DNA of 64,000 bases from Deltaproteobacteria bacterium (GTDB taxonomy: Bacteria > Bdellovibrionota > Bdellovibrionia > Bdellovibrionales > JAMPXM01): assembly GCA_017302795.1 (NCBI GenBank), contig JAFLCB010000012.1, forward strand, positions 1-64,000, written 5' to 3'. The first letter of the stretch is position 1. Each line of letters begins with the position of its first letter. Positions 30,390-38,964 of the stretch are shown here, in pieces. Both the position numbers and the translations under genes were made by a program. Below the pieces are notes generated by a model. It saw nothing but the letters and a program-made list of their open reading frames with translations, was not told the DNA's origin and ran no database searches.

Positions 30390-30465
30390 ACATTGTAGTT
30401 AGCCATTCGTAGGGCAGTAGGCAACAAGTCGCTGTCGAGTAATGCGAGGCCAACCAGGAGAACTG

Positions 30466-31089
30466 ATGATGGGAAATGTGAGTTTAGGAATTGGTGACAT
30501 GAAAAGGTTTGGTCTTCTGATAGCACTAGTGGGCGTGGTGTTGACGTCAGCTGTAGGCTGCGGAATTCAATCGATCCCGATGGCTAAAAACGACGTCGAT
30601 GCGACGCTCGCTGAGGTGACCAACCAGTACAAGCGCCGGGCAGATCTTATTCCCAATCTCGTTGAGACCGTGAAGGGATACGCGAAACAAGAAAACTCGA
30701 CACTTGTCGCGGTCACGGAAGCGCGGGCGAAGGCGACTTCAATGAACATCGACCCTTCGAAAGTAACGCCGGATCAATTGCAGAAGTTCTCTGAGGCTCA
30801 AGGTCAACTTTCACAGGCGCTTGGAAGACTTTTGGCGGTTTCAGAGAATTATCCAGATTTAAAATCCAATCAAAACTTTCGCGACCTCCAGGCGCAGCTC
30901 GAAGGAACTGAGAACCGCATCACCGTGGCGCGCAATCGGTATATTGAATCCATCAAGGTGTTCAATAACCTTGTGACCGTCTTTCCGACGAGCCTTACAA
31001 ATTCCTTTCATTTTAAATTTCAACCAATGCCTCAGTTTGGTGCCGAAGTGACCGAGGAAGAGAAAAAAGCTCCTCCGGTGAAATTCTAA
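30466..31089 (+). CDS. LemA-family lipoprotein-like protein
   Basis: A 207-residue LemA-family protein. From ATG 30466 (AGGAG 5 nt upstream; ATG 30469 is equally possible) a hydrophobic start ends in TSAVGCG, a possible lipobox. The helical LemA core contains YKRRADLIPNLVETVKGYA and ESIKVFNNLVTVFPTS, the usual signature. It is 2 nt ahead of a TPM-domain gene, followed by another, a common three-gene arrangement. Function in bacteria is poorly known. Confidence 0.92.
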   Translation: MMGNVSLGIGDMKRFGLLIALVGVVLTSAVGCGIQSIPMAKNDVDATLAEVTNQYKRRADLIPNLVETVKGYAKQENSTLVAVTEARAKATSMNIDPSKVTPDQLQKFSEAQGQLSQALGRLLAVSENYPDLKSNQNFRDLQAQLEGTENRITVARNRYIESIKVFNNLVTVFPTSLTNSFHFKFQPMPQFGAEVTEEEKKAPPVKF

Positions 31090-31091
31090 CG

Positions 31092-31886
31092 ATGTTGAAA
31101 TTTGTGCGCTTCGGAAATTTTGAGCCGATCATTGCCATTGGCCTCATGCTGCTGACGATTTTCACCAGCGCTGCGCACGCTGATTTTGTTGTTCCACGTT
31201 TGACAGGACCAGTTGTCGATCAAGCGAATGTGCTAACTGAGGAAGTGGCGCGTGAACTCGAGTTCACGATTCGTAGGTTACAGGAATCTGGCGGGCCGCA
31301 GGTCAATGTTGTCGTTGTTGAGTCTCTCTCGGGTTTACCCATCGAGTCTGCCGCAATCAAAATCGCAGATGCGTGGAAGCTCGGCGATCAAACACGGGAT
31401 GATGGTGTGATTCTGTTGGTCTCGATGAATGACCGAAAAATTCGAATTGAAGTTGGTCAGGGCCTAGAAGGTACGCTGACAGATCTCGATAGTAAGCGGA
31501 TCATTGATGAACAAATGACTCCCGCGTTTCGCACTGGGCAAGCGAGTTATGGAATTTTGCTAGGTAGTCGGGCGATCATGGCAAAGATTGCTCCGCAGCA
31601 GGTGAAATCAGAGTTTGCCGCACTTCCTGTTCGAACTCCGACCCGTTCGCGCGAACTTCCACTTCCACTTCTATTAGTGTTGATTGTGATCGCGATCATC
31701 GGCAGCAGGCTTCAGAAGCGCGGACGATACCGTCGATTTCGAGGGTACGATCCCTCGCGCTCGGCAGGAGGCTGGACGTCAGGCGGCGGTGGCTGGTCGG
31801 GTGGGAGTTCTGGTGGATCATCCAGCGGCGGCTGGTCAGGCGGTGGCGGCGGATTTTCCGGCGGCGGCGCCTCGGGAGGTTGGTAA
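31092..31886 (+). CDS. TPM-domain protein with glycine-rich C-terminus (YgcG-like)
   Basis: A 264-residue envelope protein. A signal peptide (about 1-31, ending AAHADF) precedes the TPM domain (about 35-175: VVDQANVLTEEVARELE, DDGVILLVSMNDRKIRIEVG, and RTGQASYGILLGSRAI). A single membrane segment (LPLPLLLVLIVIAIIGS) and a Gly/Ser/Trp-rich tail (GGWSGGGGGFSGGGASGGW) end it, as in YgcG proteins. It overlaps the next gene by 1 nt (TAATG). Confidence 0.92.
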   Translation: MLKFVRFGNFEPIIAIGLMLLTIFTSAAHADFVVPRLTGPVVDQANVLTEEVARELEFTIRRLQESGGPQVNVVVVESLSGLPIESAAIKIADAWKLGDQTRDDGVILLVSMNDRKIRIEVGQGLEGTLTDLDSKRIIDEQMTPAFRTGQASYGILLGSRAIMAKIAPQQVKSEFAALPVRTPTRSRELPLPLLLVLIVIAIIGSRLQKRGRYRRFRGYDPSRSAGGWTSGGGGWSGGSSGGSSSGGWSGGGGGFSGGGASGGW

Positions 31887-32629
31887 TGTTGCGCAAGGAA
31901 CTTCCGGATTGGATCGGCGAATATCTTTCTTACGAAGAGGCCGAGCGAATTGAAAATGCAGTGATGGAAGTAGAGCGAAAAACGTCGGCTGAGATTGTCC
32001 CAATGATTGTTCGCCGATCGACCATGAAAGCGACCGGCGACCGAATGATTTTCTGGATTTGCTTCGGCATTTTCGGAATCGGAGGTGCTACCTGGTTCGC
32101 CTTCGTCGGCGGAATTGATGAGGTCCTTTTAGGGAAGCTCATAGAAAAGTTTGGTCTTTGGCCAAACGAATGGATGTATCGAATACTAGCAGGACTGGCC
32201 GAAACTATTGTCGCAGGAGCGATGTTTTTAGTTTCGTGGTTTGTTGCTGGATTTTTCGCCGACCTCGATTGGGTCCACCGCCTTGTTTTCCCTCCGAGAG
32301 ATCAGGCCCTGCAGGTAGAGCATCGTGCACAGGCCGAGTTTTTCGCTTCGGATCTGCGCTCAACTTCGGGAAAGACAGGTGTCCTCATTTTTATTTCCTT
32401 GCTCGAGCACCGAGCTGTGATTTTAGCCGACGAGGCTATTTCAACGAAGCTTGATAAGGAAGTCTGGAAATCGACGCTTGAGACTTTAGTGAAAGCGATT
32501 GCTAACGGCGAAATGGCACGCGGCTATGCGGCGACCGTCGGGATTGTCGGGCGTCTTTTGGAGCCGCATTTTCCAGTCGCTGAGACGAACCATAACGAGC
32601 TTTCAGATCGTTTGCGGATCAAAGAGTAA
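31886..32629 (+). CDS. Second TPM-domain membrane protein
   Basis: A 247-residue protein from ATG 31886, preceded by GGGAGG. The start overlaps the previous stop by 1 nt. The N-terminal part (ERIENAVMEVERKTSAEIVPMIV) and the later part (TGVLIFISLLEHRAVILAD) are the two halves of a TPM domain, split by two hydrophobic segments (about 53-75 and 108-130). It completes the lemA-TPM-TPM operon. Role unknown; related proteins are linked to membrane or protein-complex maintenance. Confidence 0.85.
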   Translation: MLRKELPDWIGEYLSYEEAERIENAVMEVERKTSAEIVPMIVRRSTMKATGDRMIFWICFGIFGIGGATWFAFVGGIDEVLLGKLIEKFGLWPNEWMYRILAGLAETIVAGAMFLVSWFVAGFFADLDWVHRLVFPPRDQALQVEHRAQAEFFASDLRSTSGKTGVLIFISLLEHRAVILADEAISTKLDKEVWKSTLETLVKAIANGEMARGYAATVGIVGRLLEPHFPVAETNHNELSDRLRIKE

Positions 32630-33085: not shown

Positions 33086-35380
33086 GTGGAAGTGTCGGAA
33101 ACCAGGGTTAAATTGCAGTTCAAAGGCGTCTACCAGGGTACGGCTGGTGCGGCTTGGTCTTCTCGCCCTAGCCGAATTCTCAACGAGCGCGGCGAAGTGC
33201 TGCATAGTTTCGCGTCCATCGAGGCTCCGACCACGTGGTCTGATCAGGCCGTGAACATCGTGGCTCGACAATATTTGCGCCAGCGACTTCCGGGCGGTGG
33301 TTCGGAAACAAGTATTCGCCAGCTCATTGAACGGGTGTCTTCGGCCATTCGGGATTTTGGTGAAACGGAACTGAAATTATTTGTGAACGAAAAAGATGCG
33401 ACTGTTTTTCAACTTCAGCTTGAAGACCTAGTTCTTCAGCAAAAGGCGTCGTTTAATTCTCCGGTTTGGTTTAACTGCGGACTTTGGCAGCGCTACCGCG
33501 TTATCGGAAATGACGGCAACTGGGCCATAGATGGCGAATCTAAGGCAGCCGTGAAGCTTGAAAACAGTTACGAGCGACCGCAAGTCTCTGCGTGTTTCAT
33601 TCAAAGTATTGAAGACGATTTAAACTCGATTTTCGAACTCGTCAAAAGCGAAGCGCGCCTGTTCAAATTCGGCAGCGGCACAGGCTCGAACTTTTCAAAC
33701 CTCCGAAGTCGGCACGAGTTGCTCTCGGGCGGTGGAACTAGTTCGGGCCTGATGAGCTTTCTTGAAGTGTTTGACCGCGCTGCCGGTGCAACCAAATCGG
33801 GTGGCACCACACGGCGCGCGGCAAAAATGGTTTGCCTCGATTTGGATCATCCGGAAGTTTTTGAATTTGTTCGTTGGAAGGCAAAAGAAGAAGCAAAAGC
33901 GCAGGCATTAGTTGCTGCGGGCTTTTCGTCAGGGATGGACGGCGAAGCGTATCACACGGTCTCCGGCCAAAACTCGAATAACTCGATTCGCGTCACTGAT
34001 GAGTTTATGAAAGCGGTCGAAGACGATGCTGATTGGTCGACGCGCGAACGGACAAGCGGGAAAATCGTTGAAACGTTTAAGGCACGGAAATTAATGCGAG
34101 CAATTTCCGAATCGGCATGGCTTTGTGCGGATCCGGGAATGCAGTATGAAAGTGCCATTCAGGCCTGGCACACCTGCAAAAATACGGCTGCTATTCGAGC
34201 CTCGAACCCCTGCGCTGAATTTATGTTTTTAGATGATACGGCCTGCAATTTGGCGTCACTCAATCTCAGCCAATTTTTAGACGGAAACGGAGAATTCCAA
34301 GTATCAGAGTTTAAGCAAGCGGTCCGTACATTGATTGTTGCCCAGGACATTTTGGTCGACTTCGCTTCTTACCCCAGTAAGCGCATTGCAGAACGGTCCT
34401 TTCAGTTCCGTCCGCTTGGTCTTGGCTACGCGAATTTGGGTGCGACATTGATGACCCTAGGACTTCCCTACGACAGTGAACAGGCGAGGTGTTTTGCTGC
34501 ATCTGTGACTTCGCTCATGACTGCCGAGGCCTATCGCACAAGCGCAGAGCTCGCCAAAATCAAAGGTGCTTTCCTTGGGTTCTCTGCCAATCGCTTGTCG
34601 ATGTTAGAAGTTATGGGAAAACACCTTCACGCCGACCAACTAAGAAATAAACTGCCAAATTATTCCGAGATGAATCGAGCGGCTAGCGAGGCTTGGACCG
34701 CAGCGGCGGAGCTTGCAGCGATCAGTGGAATTCGCAACTCGCAGGTTACTGTTTTAGCACCCACGGGAACGATCGCGTTCATGATGGATTGCGACACTAC
34801 GGGGATTGAGCCGGAGTTCGCTCTCGTGAAACGCAAAACATTGGCCGGTGGTGGCGCATTGACGATTATCAATCAGTCGCTCACACGCGCATTGATTTCT
34901 CTCAAGTATTCGAACCAAGAAGCTGAGCAGATTTCTGCTCGACTGAGAGCAGAGCCGCAACGTCAAGGGGAACCAGGTTTTCTAGCATCCATTGGGATTC
35001 GCGAAGAACATGTTTCTGTCTTTCATTGCGCCGCAGAGCTTTCGCCTAAGGCACATTTGATGATGATGGCGTCTGTTCAACCATTTCTTAGCGGAGCGAT
35101 TTCCAAAACGGTGAACTTATCGAAGGAAGCCACTGTCGAAGAGGTTGAAGAGGTTTTCCAAACTGCGTGGACGTTAGGTTTGAAAGCAGTTGCTGTGTAC
35201 CGCGATGGTTCCAAAGGCGTGCAGCCACTGACGATGAATCCATCCAATGATGTCGAAAACGTTAAGCGTGCCGGCTTGAGACACGGCGAAAGCCTATGTC
35301 CGGTTTGTCAATATCCAGCAGTTCTCAGTGGAACTTGTTGGGTGTGCCCCAATTGCGGTCATTCAATTTCATGTTCCTAA
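33086..35380 (+). CDS. nrdJ: Adenosylcobalamin-dependent ribonucleoside-diphosphate reductase
   Basis: Class II ribonucleotide reductase, making deoxyribonucleotides with a B12-generated thiyl radical, so it does not depend on oxygen. It has 764 residues. Visible are FNSPVWFNCGLW, FKFGSGTGSNFSNLRS, GGTTRRAAKMVCLDLDHPE (given as GGTTRRAAKMVCLDLD), the active-site NPCAEFMFLDDTACNLASLN (NPCAE) and the ATP/GTP-like TGTIAFMMDCDTTGIEPEFA. The C-terminus is a zinc ribbon with CPVC and CPNC, proposed to act in re-reduction. It starts at GTG 33086. It is shorter than the longest NrdJ proteins. No class I or III reductase is in the window. Confidence 0.95.
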   Translation: MEVSETRVKLQFKGVYQGTAGAAWSSRPSRILNERGEVLHSFASIEAPTTWSDQAVNIVARQYLRQRLPGGGSETSIRQLIERVSSAIRDFGETELKLFVNEKDATVFQLQLEDLVLQQKASFNSPVWFNCGLWQRYRVIGNDGNWAIDGESKAAVKLENSYERPQVSACFIQSIEDDLNSIFELVKSEARLFKFGSGTGSNFSNLRSRHELLSGGGTSSGLMSFLEVFDRAAGATKSGGTTRRAAKMVCLDLDHPEVFEFVRWKAKEEAKAQALVAAGFSSGMDGEAYHTVSGQNSNNSIRVTDEFMKAVEDDADWSTRERTSGKIVETFKARKLMRAISESAWLCADPGMQYESAIQAWHTCKNTAAIRASNPCAEFMFLDDTACNLASLNLSQFLDGNGEFQVSEFKQAVRTLIVAQDILVDFASYPSKRIAERSFQFRPLGLGYANLGATLMTLGLPYDSEQARCFAASVTSLMTAEAYRTSAELAKIKGAFLGFSANRLSMLEVMGKHLHADQLRNKLPNYSEMNRAASEAWTAAAELAAISGIRNSQVTVLAPTGTIAFMMDCDTTGIEPEFALVKRKTLAGGGALTIINQSLTRALISLKYSNQEAEQISARLRAEPQRQGEPGFLASIGIREEHVSVFHCAAELSPKAHLMMMASVQPFLSGAISKTVNLSKEATVEEVEEVFQTAWTLGLKAVAVYRDGSKGVQPLTMNPSNDVENVKRAGLRHGESLCPVCQYPAVLSGTCWVCPNCGHSISCS

Positions 35381-35409: not shown

Positions 35410-36342
35410 CTAGGTCCCGGCCTCAATTTTTGGAACCTGCGCTATCGGAAACAGTCCGATTCTTGTTAGTTGATTTCTAACTATGAGAGTCGAGTCGAAG
35501 ACGCCGGGTGAGTCGGCCGGATGCAACGGCAAAAAGCCAACTGGGGCAGACTGTCTAAAGACAGTTCCGATGGAAGAAAATGTCTGAACGACAAGTTCGT
35601 CAAACACTTGGTCCACGGTCCGAAACCGACTCTTTTTTCCGAGATTGAAATCGTGCCTCAACGGTAGAAATAAAAATAAGCGAAAGCGAAGCGGCAGCAA
35701 GGAAAGCCCATTGCGCGCGTTCGCGAAGAAAATCGAACATAAGCGTTTCCGTTCGATCGATTCTCGCCCGTGCCAAGAAGATGGAGTTAAGAATTCCAGC
35801 TTTGAGGCGAATTCATTCAGGACAATACTGTTAGCCAAATCCGCCAGTGCAGGCATCAGTCTTTCATTCAATTTTAAAGCGTGCCCGGCGGCGAGCGCGA
35901 TTGTCCCGAACTGTCGGTAGAGGTCTAGCAAAAACTCGCTCTCTGTCTGAGGGCGAAGCCTTCGAACTTCAGTTTCCAGTCCCATCAAGTGTTCTAGAAA
36001 GTACTCTCGAGGAATGGAGGAATCTAAAAAGAGACTGATCTCTTTCCAGGCTCGAATCGCCAATTCGAAATCCGGATGATCTTGAGAAATTGAATATTGT
36101 GCTTCTAAATCTTCTGGGTCGCGGAAAACCGCCGCCATTTTTTGAAGGGTCAGGACCGCTTCGTTCGTTGTTCCACAATTCTTGATCGTTTTCCGAATCA
36201 GGATAAAAACCGTCGCCAGGCAATCTAGAAGCCGACGTTCCGGTGGCCTAAGAAAGCGCAGCGATGCTTTCCATTGCGGGGAGATTTCACGCAGAAGGAT
36301 CGAACCCGTAAAGCGGCGACTCGCTTGGCTGTTTAGATTCAC
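35410..36342 (-). CDS. Phytoene/squalene-synthase-like protein lacking the Asp-rich motifs
   Basis: A 310-residue protein that I align by eye with phytoene synthase. LRPPERRLLDCLATVFILIRK fits the first helix, MGLETEVRRLRPQTESEFLLDLYRQFG fits the central G-x-x-x-D and YC region, and LADLANSIVLNEFASKLEF fits the second metal-binding helix. The two Asp-rich motifs that bind magnesium-diphosphate are replaced: DDxxD becomes RKTIKN, and the RD-x-x-ED of the second helix becomes ASKLEF. It is therefore likely an inactive relative, perhaps structural or regulatory. Its ATG overlaps the lycopene cyclase stop by 4 nt, which supports a carotenoid role. Assignment is tentative and rests on weak similarity plus context. 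Confidence 0.5.
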   Translation of the reverse strand: MNLNSQASRRFTGSILLREISPQWKASLRFLRPPERRLLDCLATVFILIRKTIKNCGTTNEAVLTLQKMAAVFRDPEDLEAQYSISQDHPDFELAIRAWKEISLFLDSSIPREYFLEHLMGLETEVRRLRPQTESEFLLDLYRQFGTIALAAGHALKLNERLMPALADLANSIVLNEFASKLEFLTPSSWHGRESIERKRLCSIFFANARNGLSLLPLRFRLFLFLPLRHDFNLGKKSRFRTVDQVFDELVVQTFSSIGTVFRQSAPVGFLPLHPADSPGVFDSTLIVRNQLTRIGLFPIAQVPKIEAGT

Positions 36343-37580
36343 GTTTGGGCCTCGGGCCGAGAGATCTCAGGAGGAGACGTTTCCGAAGCCCAATTTTTAT
36401 AGATTTTGCCGCTGCGAACAGGCGGCTTTAAGCCAAGTATTTTTACTGCATCAGTTTTCGTCGACGTTCCAGATTGAAATCGTCCAATGATATCTTCCTT
36501 TAGGCCCATCAGCCGATCAAAGGCGATGTGACGAAGCGAAGGCTCGACGGCTTGAAATACGAGACGATTAAAGGTTCGATAAAACCGTTGTTGATCAACC
36601 CAGTCTTTTCGGAAGTGCCGGAGTTCGGCTCGCACCGGTCCGGTTCGTAAACGCGGCCTGGTGGCAATGAACTCTGCAACTCTTGTCGCATCGGATACGG
36701 CTTGGCCTAATGCCGAATGATACCATCCTTGTGCGGCAGAGATCTGAAGTGGGGAACGGTCGACAAAATCTTCACCTTCTATGGACACCCGTTTTGAGCC
36801 TTGATGAATTTGGTCAGCCGGAAAGGTTTGAAGTGGCAACGGGATCGCCGCCTGCTCTTTGCGAACTACTGAATTTGAAAGCGAATGAACCGACCAACCG
36901 TTTCGCTCTCCATAGGCAAGAATGCTTCGGCTAATTCGCTCGAAATTTAAGTCCGGGTTCGAACTCAAGTAGCATTCCTGAACAAAAAGATTGAGGTCAT
37001 TAATGGGAGTGATTGAAAAATATCGAAACCCATCCATTTGAGGAACTCTTGCGTCCATCAAAACGGGCAGTTTAAGTCCGTGCGGTTTATTAAGTTTTAA
37101 ATCAAAGCCGATGTATTTCATCCAGCCGCAGGGCGCATCGAAAAACCTGTTCTTCTGAATCTGCTCGCGATGAATGCCTGTCGCATCCACGACAAGCGGC
37201 GCGCGCAAAAACTGACCTGTCGATGTTTCGACCTCGTTATCAGAAATAGCTTTCACGGAACAGCCAAGCCTAACGCCATCGCCCAAAATTCCGATGAGGC
37301 CACTATGAAAATCAGCGGATCGAATAACCGAGTGGCGAAGAGGAATCGTTTTGTCTGTTTTCGGAAAGCGGACATCGAAGCTTTCCCATGATTTTGTCAT
37401 CACGGGCGTCAGCCAGGGGTCGTTTTCGCCGGCTGTTTGAAAGCCCCAAGTATGATTGCCGCCTAGGGTGTTCTGGCGCTCAAGAAGCAGGATCCGCAAA
37501 TTAGGGTGTGCCAACGCGAGGCGCAACGCGAGGAGACCACCCGAAAGACCGCCGCCGGCGATAATTACATCAGCATTCAT
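36339..37580 (-). CDS. crtY: Lycopene beta-cyclase (CrtY type)
   Basis: A flavoprotein that closes beta-ionone rings on lycopene. It has 413 residues. The N-terminal dinucleotide-binding motif is VIIAGGGLSGGLLALRLA, followed by GGNHTWGF, both typical of CrtY. The middle region LNLFVQECYLSS stands where most enzymes have L-x-E-D-T-Y; the Glu is kept, while D-T is C-x. The C-terminal FYRTFNRLVFQAVEP and LKEDIIGRFQSG segments also fit. It is followed with a 4-nt overlap by the CrtB-like gene. No crtE, active crtB or crtI is in the window. Confidence 0.88.
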   Translation of the reverse strand: MNADVIIAGGGLSGGLLALRLALAHPNLRILLLERQNTLGGNHTWGFQTAGENDPWLTPVMTKSWESFDVRFPKTDKTIPLRHSVIRSADFHSGLIGILGDGVRLGCSVKAISDNEVETSTGQFLRAPLVVDATGIHREQIQKNRFFDAPCGWMKYIGFDLKLNKPHGLKLPVLMDARVPQMDGFRYFSITPINDLNLFVQECYLSSNPDLNFERISRSILAYGERNGWSVHSLSNSVVRKEQAAIPLPLQTFPADQIHQGSKRVSIEGEDFVDRSPLQISAAQGWYHSALGQAVSDATRVAEFIATRPRLRTGPVRAELRHFRKDWVDQQRFYRTFNRLVFQAVEPSLRHIAFDRLMGLKEDIIGRFQSGTSTKTDAVKILGLKPPVRSGKIYKNWASETSPPEISRPEAQT

Positions 37581-37707
37581 TTAAAAGATTCTAATTGAGA
37601 ACAGCGGAATCCAGTCAAAGAAGAAGAGACCCTTGACGCATGAGGCATCGTCTCGCAAGAGTCTTGCCTCGGGCCAAAAGGGCTTAGGACATCAAGGGGA
37701 ACTCTAT

Positions 37708-38964
37708 ATGGAATCGCGTAGAACTGCTGCTGCCGAAGGCAGCCAGTCTGAATTGCCGACTTGGAAGACATTTGACCTGTTTAATCCTTCGGAAGAGCAC
37801 AAAATGCTGCGCGACACTGTAGCATCCTTCGTCTCTGCCGAAGTCGAGCACCAAGCATTGGAATTTGACCGTAAGGAACAATTTAATTTGCCGCTTTTTC
37901 GAAAGCTAGGCGATCTCGGACTCCTTGGAATTACTGTACCGGAAGCGTACGGCGGTTCGGGTTTAGATGCCGTGGCTGCAGTCATTGCACACGAAGAAAT
38001 CTCGGCCAGTGATCCTGGTTTTTGCTTGGCCTACCTCGCACATTCAATGCTTTTTGTTAACAACTTGGCAGTCAATGGATCGGAAGAACAAAAGAAACGG
38101 ATTCTTCCGGGCGTTTGCGCAGGCACGCATGTTGGCGCGATGGCAATGTCGGAACCGAATTTTGGGACTGATGTTCTCGGAATGGAAACCACGGCCAAGC
38201 GAGATGGCGACTTTTTTGTGATCAACGGCCAAAAAATGTGGATTACCAATGGGTGCATTGATGAAACAGGTACGCCTGCTGATTTCGTTTGGGTTTATGC
38301 AAAGACAGGCGAAAAAAATGGGCGGCCGCAGATTTCCACTTTCATCGTGGAAAAAGGCATGGCTGGCTATGCGGTAGGACAAAAGATCCGAGATAAATCT
38401 GGAATGCGCGCATCCAATACCGCAGAACTTGTTTTCACAAACTGTCGAGTGCCGATCGCCAATCTGGTCGGGCAAGAGGGTGAATCTGTATCGCATATGA
38501 TGCGCAATCTTGAAATCGAGCGAGTTACCCTTGCGGCGATGAGTTTGGGAATCGCTCGGCGGTCAGTTGATGCGATGGTGAAATACGCGAAAGAGCGAAA
38601 GGCGTTCGGAAAATCGTTGGCAAGTTTTGGCCAAGTTCAGCGCCACATCGCAGAAAGTTATGCCGAGTACCACGCGTGCGCTAGCTATGTTTACGACACC
38701 GCTCGACGCATGCATTTATACCAGCACGCCAGTCACACATCTGGCGGCGAAATCAGCCGACTTGATTCCGACGGCGTGAAGCTTGTCACAACGACAGCCG
38801 CAAAGAACATCGCTGATCGCGCTATTCAAGTTCTCGGTGGCTATGGATACGTCGGCGAATATGTCGTCGAACGTTTGTGGCGGGACGCAAAGCTGCTCGA
38901 AATTGGCGGCGGTACGTTGGAAGCGCATCAAAAGAACATCACTCGTGATTTGACTAGGGACTAA
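37708..38964 (+). CDS. Acyl-CoA dehydrogenase, isovaleryl-CoA dehydrogenase-like
   Basis: A FAD enzyme that adds a 2,3 double bond to an acyl-CoA. From ATG 37708 (GGGGA 7 nt upstream) it has 418 residues. Domains in order: N-terminal helical (about 20-130), beta barrel (AMSEPNFGTDVLGMETTAKR, QKMWITNG) and C-terminal helical (QVLGGYGYVGEYVVERLWRD, EIGGGTLEAHQ). The catalytic Glu found at E-G-T in medium-chain enzymes is Gly here, while LEIERVTLA holds a Glu where isovaleryl-CoA dehydrogenase has its base. This points to a branched-chain substrate, as in leucine breakdown. Stand-alone; diverges from the carotenoid pair. Confidence 0.9.
   Translation: MESRRTAAAEGSQSELPTWKTFDLFNPSEEHKMLRDTVASFVSAEVEHQALEFDRKEQFNLPLFRKLGDLGLLGITVPEAYGGSGLDAVAAVIAHEEISASDPGFCLAYLAHSMLFVNNLAVNGSEEQKKRILPGVCAGTHVGAMAMSEPNFGTDVLGMETTAKRDGDFFVINGQKMWITNGCIDETGTPADFVWVYAKTGEKNGRPQISTFIVEKGMAGYAVGQKIRDKSGMRASNTAELVFTNCRVPIANLVGQEGESVSHMMRNLEIERVTLAAMSLGIARRSVDAMVKYAKERKAFGKSLASFGQVQRHIAESYAEYHACASYVYDTARRMHLYQHASHTSGGEISRLDSDGVKLVTTTAAKNIADRAIQVLGGYGYVGEYVVERLWRDAKLLEIGGGTLEAHQKNITRDLTRD

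Follow-up and report, generated by a model that had tools for sequence, protein, structure and literature searches.

A lycopene cyclase homologue and a degenerate phytoene synthase descendant as the probable remnant of a native carotenoid operon in the Bdellovibrionales

The window (the whole 64,000-nucleotide stretch of DNA analysed) contains two adjoining genes that are very probably what survives of the crtY-crtE-crtI-crtB operon native to the lineage. The first, crtY2, encodes a homologue of lycopene cyclase, and the second, here termed PSL, encodes a descendant of the phytoene synthase CrtB. With moderate confidence, we favor the reading that the crtY2-PSL pair has been kept for a function outside carotenoid synthesis. 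The window genome (G000), that of an uncultured relative of Bdellovibrio, belongs to a genus represented by five genomes (G000 to G004), most or all of which are draft metagenome assemblies; the organisms of the compared genomes, where named, are Bdellovibrionaceae or Bdellovibrionota metagenome assemblies.

The features of the locus are given in Table 1. The preliminary description of this DNA, made from the letters alone, had placed the start of a 310-residue open reading frame over the crtY stop by 4 nt, which is correct, the shared letters being GTGA. This exact overlap is specific to the window species. The PSL frames of three congeners start either within a few nt of the crtY stop or approximately 10 nt past it. 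At window positions 30442-32629, a LemA-like gene is followed by two TPM-domain-like genes (named by eye), an arrangement that adjoins the same locus in G002.

Table 1. Features of the crtY2-PSL locus in window coordinates
Feature	Position	Strand	Remarks
nrdJ-like ribonucleotide reductase, convergent	33086..35380	+	Conserved locus boundary in G000-G004 and G012; named by eye
PSL (catalytically degenerate CrtB/phytoene synthase descendant)	35410..36342	-	310 aa, GTG start
PSL residues 176-185, NEFASKLEFL	35788..35817	-	At the position of the second CrtB motif, NxxRDxxxD; both Asp missing
PSL residues 49-54, IRKTIK	36181..36198	-	At the position of the first CrtB Asp motif, DDxxD
GTGA overlap of crtY2 stop and PSL start	36339..36342	-	4 nt
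crtY2 (native lycopene cyclase homologue, conserved Glu lost)	36339..37580	-	413 aa; TIGR01789, 238 bits
CrtY2 residues 199-203, FVQEC	36972..36986	-	Gln201 in place of Glu
CrtY2 residues 9-15, GGGLSGG	37536..37556	-	Dinucleotide (FAD) binding glycine motif, kept
Acyl-CoA dehydrogenase, divergent	37633..38964	+	Conserved boundary; adjoins crtY also in G001, G002, G006, G009 and G012; named by eye

Homology of PSL to CrtB and the state of its catalytic residues

Taken alone, the window PSL has no match in Pfam or NCBIfam. Two of its syntenic orthologs match the SQS_PSY family (PF00494) with 49 and 62 bits (cut-off 26), and profile-profile comparison (hhalign) aligns the four-member PSL family with 12 related CrtBs at 99.2% probability, or 95.3% when only the window PSL and its closest ortholog are used. 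The AlphaFold2 model of PSL (pLDDT 77.9, with low confidence at most positions past residue 233) is predicted to adopt the all-helical SQS/PSY fold, and a Foldseek search of the PDB with this model returned SQS/PSY-family chains at ranks 1-47, with a TM of about 0.5. Because the AlphaFold2 alignment included CrtBs, the fold match is supporting rather than independent evidence. The preliminary description had aligned the 310-residue protein with CrtB and had named an HMM-HMM comparison and a structure prediction as checks. The homology is borne out by hhalign, by the orthologs above the Pfam cut-off and by synteny, which together rule out a chance likeness, and the best predicted fold matches agree, subject to the CrtBs in the alignment. 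A frameshift or pseudogene artefact was likewise ruled out, since the frames are open in all orthologs. Across the class, a PSL profile search gave strong matches only in G000 and G002-G004; weak matches elsewhere had CrtB-like scores, and those checked sit at crtB positions.

Only six of the 42 residues that are invariant across the 12 related CrtBs are kept in PSL, the other 36 being lost. In the alignment with CrtB, the first Asp motif, DDxxD, reads RKxxK in the window PSL (RKTIK, residues 50-54); each of the 12 related CrtBs has Asp at all three of these sites. RDxxxD, the second motif, has been lost from the window PSL by deletion or replacement. The alignment thus upholds the claim that both Asp-rich motifs are gone (RKTIKN and ASKLEF in the wording of the preliminary description), and, as judged from these residues, PSL is very probably inactive as a phytoene synthase. 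All four PSLs carry Arg50 in place of the first catalytic Asp, which suggests that inactivation probably predates their split.

The altered glutamate of CrtY2

The window CrtY lies above the NCBIfam cut-off for CrtY (TIGR01789, 238 versus 215.2 bits). Glu stands at the middle position of the FVQEC stretch in all 19 cluster-embedded CrtYs, and the window CrtY2 reads Gln201 there. The V-Q-E-C-Y noted earlier in place of E-D-T-Y therefore holds, and the change falls on this conserved Glu. Among six CrtYs without an operon, only that of G003 keeps Glu at position 201; G000, G002 and G004 have Gln there, G001 has Lys and G009 has Ser. The Glu retained in G003 counts against the favored reading of the pair. 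The E-D/E-T motif of CrtY is the counterpart of the FLEET motif in plant cyclases. In FLEET, the first Glu has been linked to beta-carotene formation (PMC10381880). Retrieved sequences carry the claim about the Glu motif; a sequence of P. ananatis CrtY served for orientation only.

From these substitutions, CrtY2 is probably inactive as a lycopene cyclase. A fold search with the CrtY2 model matched only the general FAD-dependent group-A oxygenase/geranylgeranyl reductase fold, with no solved lycopene cyclase among the matches, and thus adds nothing on the active site. The probable inactivation of CrtY2 also makes it unlikely that PSL acts as a pseudoenzyme in support of a working cyclase. Another genus (G009) may offer an independent example of this fate: its solitary crtY (L039:1461-2819) encodes Ser in place of the conserved Glu and has no adjoining crtE, crtI or crtB.

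It is very improbable that both proteins have remained catalytic by way of new active sites, which would use Asp168, Asp244 and Asp248 in PSL and the neighboring Glu202 in CrtY2. The three Asp residues are invariant in the four PSLs, as is Glu202 in the five CrtY2 proteins of the genus, but the model has a pLDDT below 50 in the stretch around Asp244 and Asp248, whose alignment may be wrong, and nearly all CrtB-invariant polar residues (Arg, Gln, Asn and Tyr) are lost from PSL as well.

The native operon and a separate crt cluster

In G012, which belongs to another genus of the same family, an intact crtY-crtE-crtI-crtB operon lies between the acyl-CoA dehydrogenase gene and nrdJ, and the same operon adjoins the acyl-CoA dehydrogenase gene in G006. 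At this site in the window genus, crtE and crtI are absent; G000, G002, G003 and G004 have crtY2-PSL and G001 has crtY2 alone. The short contig of G009 has only crtY left from this operon. The phylogenies are in keeping with this synteny, as the CrtY2 proteins of the genus are sister to the CrtY of G012 (98/95), and PSL groups with the CrtB of G012 (81/91 and 84/88, with long branches). In addition, every PSL has Trp99, a residue otherwise seen in just one of the 12 CrtBs, the one from G012. The site, the trees and Trp99 together indicate that PSL is the native crtB after the loss of crtE and crtI. The earlier interpretation, a pseudoenzyme bound to a cyclase or a new isoprenoid-binding function, had recognized a CrtB homologue without Asp motifs and a real change in CrtY, and had missed both the collapsed operon and a second crt cluster.

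This second cluster lies on another contig of the window genome (C8) and comprises crtE-crtI-crtB and a second crtY; the motifs of its CrtB and the Glu of its CrtY are intact. The cluster (L042:3184-11339) also contains a 198-aa protein without a Pfam match, ABC transporter-like genes and a fatty-acid-hydroxylase-family protein. Its CrtY (L042:10131-11336) has SKTW instead of GGNHTW and a shortened middle part, keeps the conserved Glu and passes TIGR01789. The genes that flank the cluster are close neighbors without intervening crt genes in G001, G003 and G004; in G002, the contig ends within the second flanking gene, with only a small gene between. In the tree, the CrtI of the cluster falls with those of two genomes from a different family (99/97), and the cluster is most simply explained by horizontal gain. 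This cluster of foreign affinity would supply the enzymes wherever carotenoids are made by the organism.

Clusters with intact CrtB motifs are found elsewhere in the genome in G000 and G004. By profile search, neither crtI nor a carotenoid crtB was found in G002 (95% complete) or G001 (88%), to which missing sequence may contribute; both genomes keep crtY2, and of the two only G002 keeps PSL. A squalene-synthase-like SQS_PSY-family protein is encoded on contig C9 of the window genome (L002:1456-2544; 74 bits, below the cut-off), and has counterparts across the family, including genomes without a carotenoid crtB.

The distribution of these pathways bears on whether the pair serves as an accessory subunit of carotenoid synthesis, modulating or scaffolding the acquired CrtB and CrtY in the manner of a non-catalytic small subunit. 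Three of the five congeners do have an intact crt cluster as well as the relic pair, but G002 has the pair, and G001 has crtY2, without crtI or a carotenoid crtB, and we consider this role quite unlikely. The pair in G002, with no detectable crt pathway, argues against a role in carotenoid synthesis. Automatic annotation will label CrtY2 as a lycopene cyclase and will assign carotenoid production to genomes that possibly lack it.

Retention of the pair and comparison with known systems

The main rival to a retained, non-catalytic pair is a decaying relic: the native operon ceased to be needed or useful, deletion removed crtE and crtI, and the remaining crtY2 and PSL are being lost, their frames still open through slow decay. 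We regard this as less probable than retention and somewhat unlikely. PSL is the fastest-evolving part of the locus (21-36% identity within the genus) and is absent in G001, which also fits relaxed constraint; it has lost most conserved catalytic positions, and the operon is down to crtY alone in G009. On the other hand, when intact CrtB was evolved neutrally in simulation, 0 of 600 lineages remained open at each distance of at least 0.2 substitutions per site per lineage, and detectable similarity was gone at 0.7; by contrast, the frames of the four PSLs and of the six orphan CrtYs have all stayed open. The G000 and G002 PSLs still match at E=1.5e-23, with 27% identity at third codon positions. 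Open frames at such divergence do not result from neutral drift; the simulation is simple (no indels, equal rates) and shows retention of the frames, not its purpose. Also against a relic, Arg50 is common to the four PSLs, so that activity was probably lost before they diverged, and CrtY2 identity within the genus is still 45-66%. Codon-position conservation was only marginally above a realigned shuffled control and was set aside as proof of selection; the selection argument therefore rests on the openness of the frames.

Intact genes in several related species, some without a detectable pigment pathway, suggest that the pair is retained for another job. Under this favored reading of retention, CrtY2 and PSL would no longer perform their old reactions and would persist as a non-catalytic or altered-function unit. 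In its likeliest form, a flavin-binding CrtY2 would still hold an isoprenoid or other lipid, and PSL would be its helical partner, independent of carotenoid synthesis and possibly in contact with CrtY. Since G001 has crtY2 and no PSL, CrtY2 does not need PSL; PSL was never seen without crtY2, and thus, if the two cooperate, PSL would be the accessory part. A more specific version, that a dead cyclase and a dead phytoene synthase were exapted together as a flavin- and lipid-binding unit in cells without a carotenoid pathway, with a similar loss of the CrtY Glu in G009, is put forward as a tentative possibility.

A search of the literature for a crt pseudoenzyme in Bdellovibrio found none. Compared with the CrtY-type lycopene beta-cyclases (TIGR01789, PF05834), CrtY2 exceeds the curated cut-off of each family and retains the glycines that bind FAD, but differs in the replacement of Glu by Gln, in an altered TGYS motif and in having no adjoining crtE, crtI or active crtB. 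A CrtY kept after its pathway and its conserved Glu were both lost would represent a novel type of remnant; a second genus shows a similar loss. PSL is like CrtB (PF00494) in descent, length and predicted all-helical fold, and occupies the place of crtB in the operons of sister genera; in contrast to CrtB, it lacks the two Asp motifs along with most of the conserved polar residues, and the window PSL escapes detection by Pfam and NCBIfam. SQS/PSY-fold proteins that lack both Asp motifs (DxxxD) and are kept for a non-synthase role exist in mitochondria, namely NDUFAF6 and Candida NDU1 (PMC8007014). Such pseudoenzymes are usually seen as an end product only, whereas here intermediate stages survive in neighboring genera, from the intact operon through crtY2 with a decayed crtB to crtY2 alone. 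NDUFAF6 and NDU1 differ from PSL in being assembly factors of mitochondrial complex I; PSL, for its part, originated in a single bacterial genus, from within its carotenoid operon, and remains paired with crtY.
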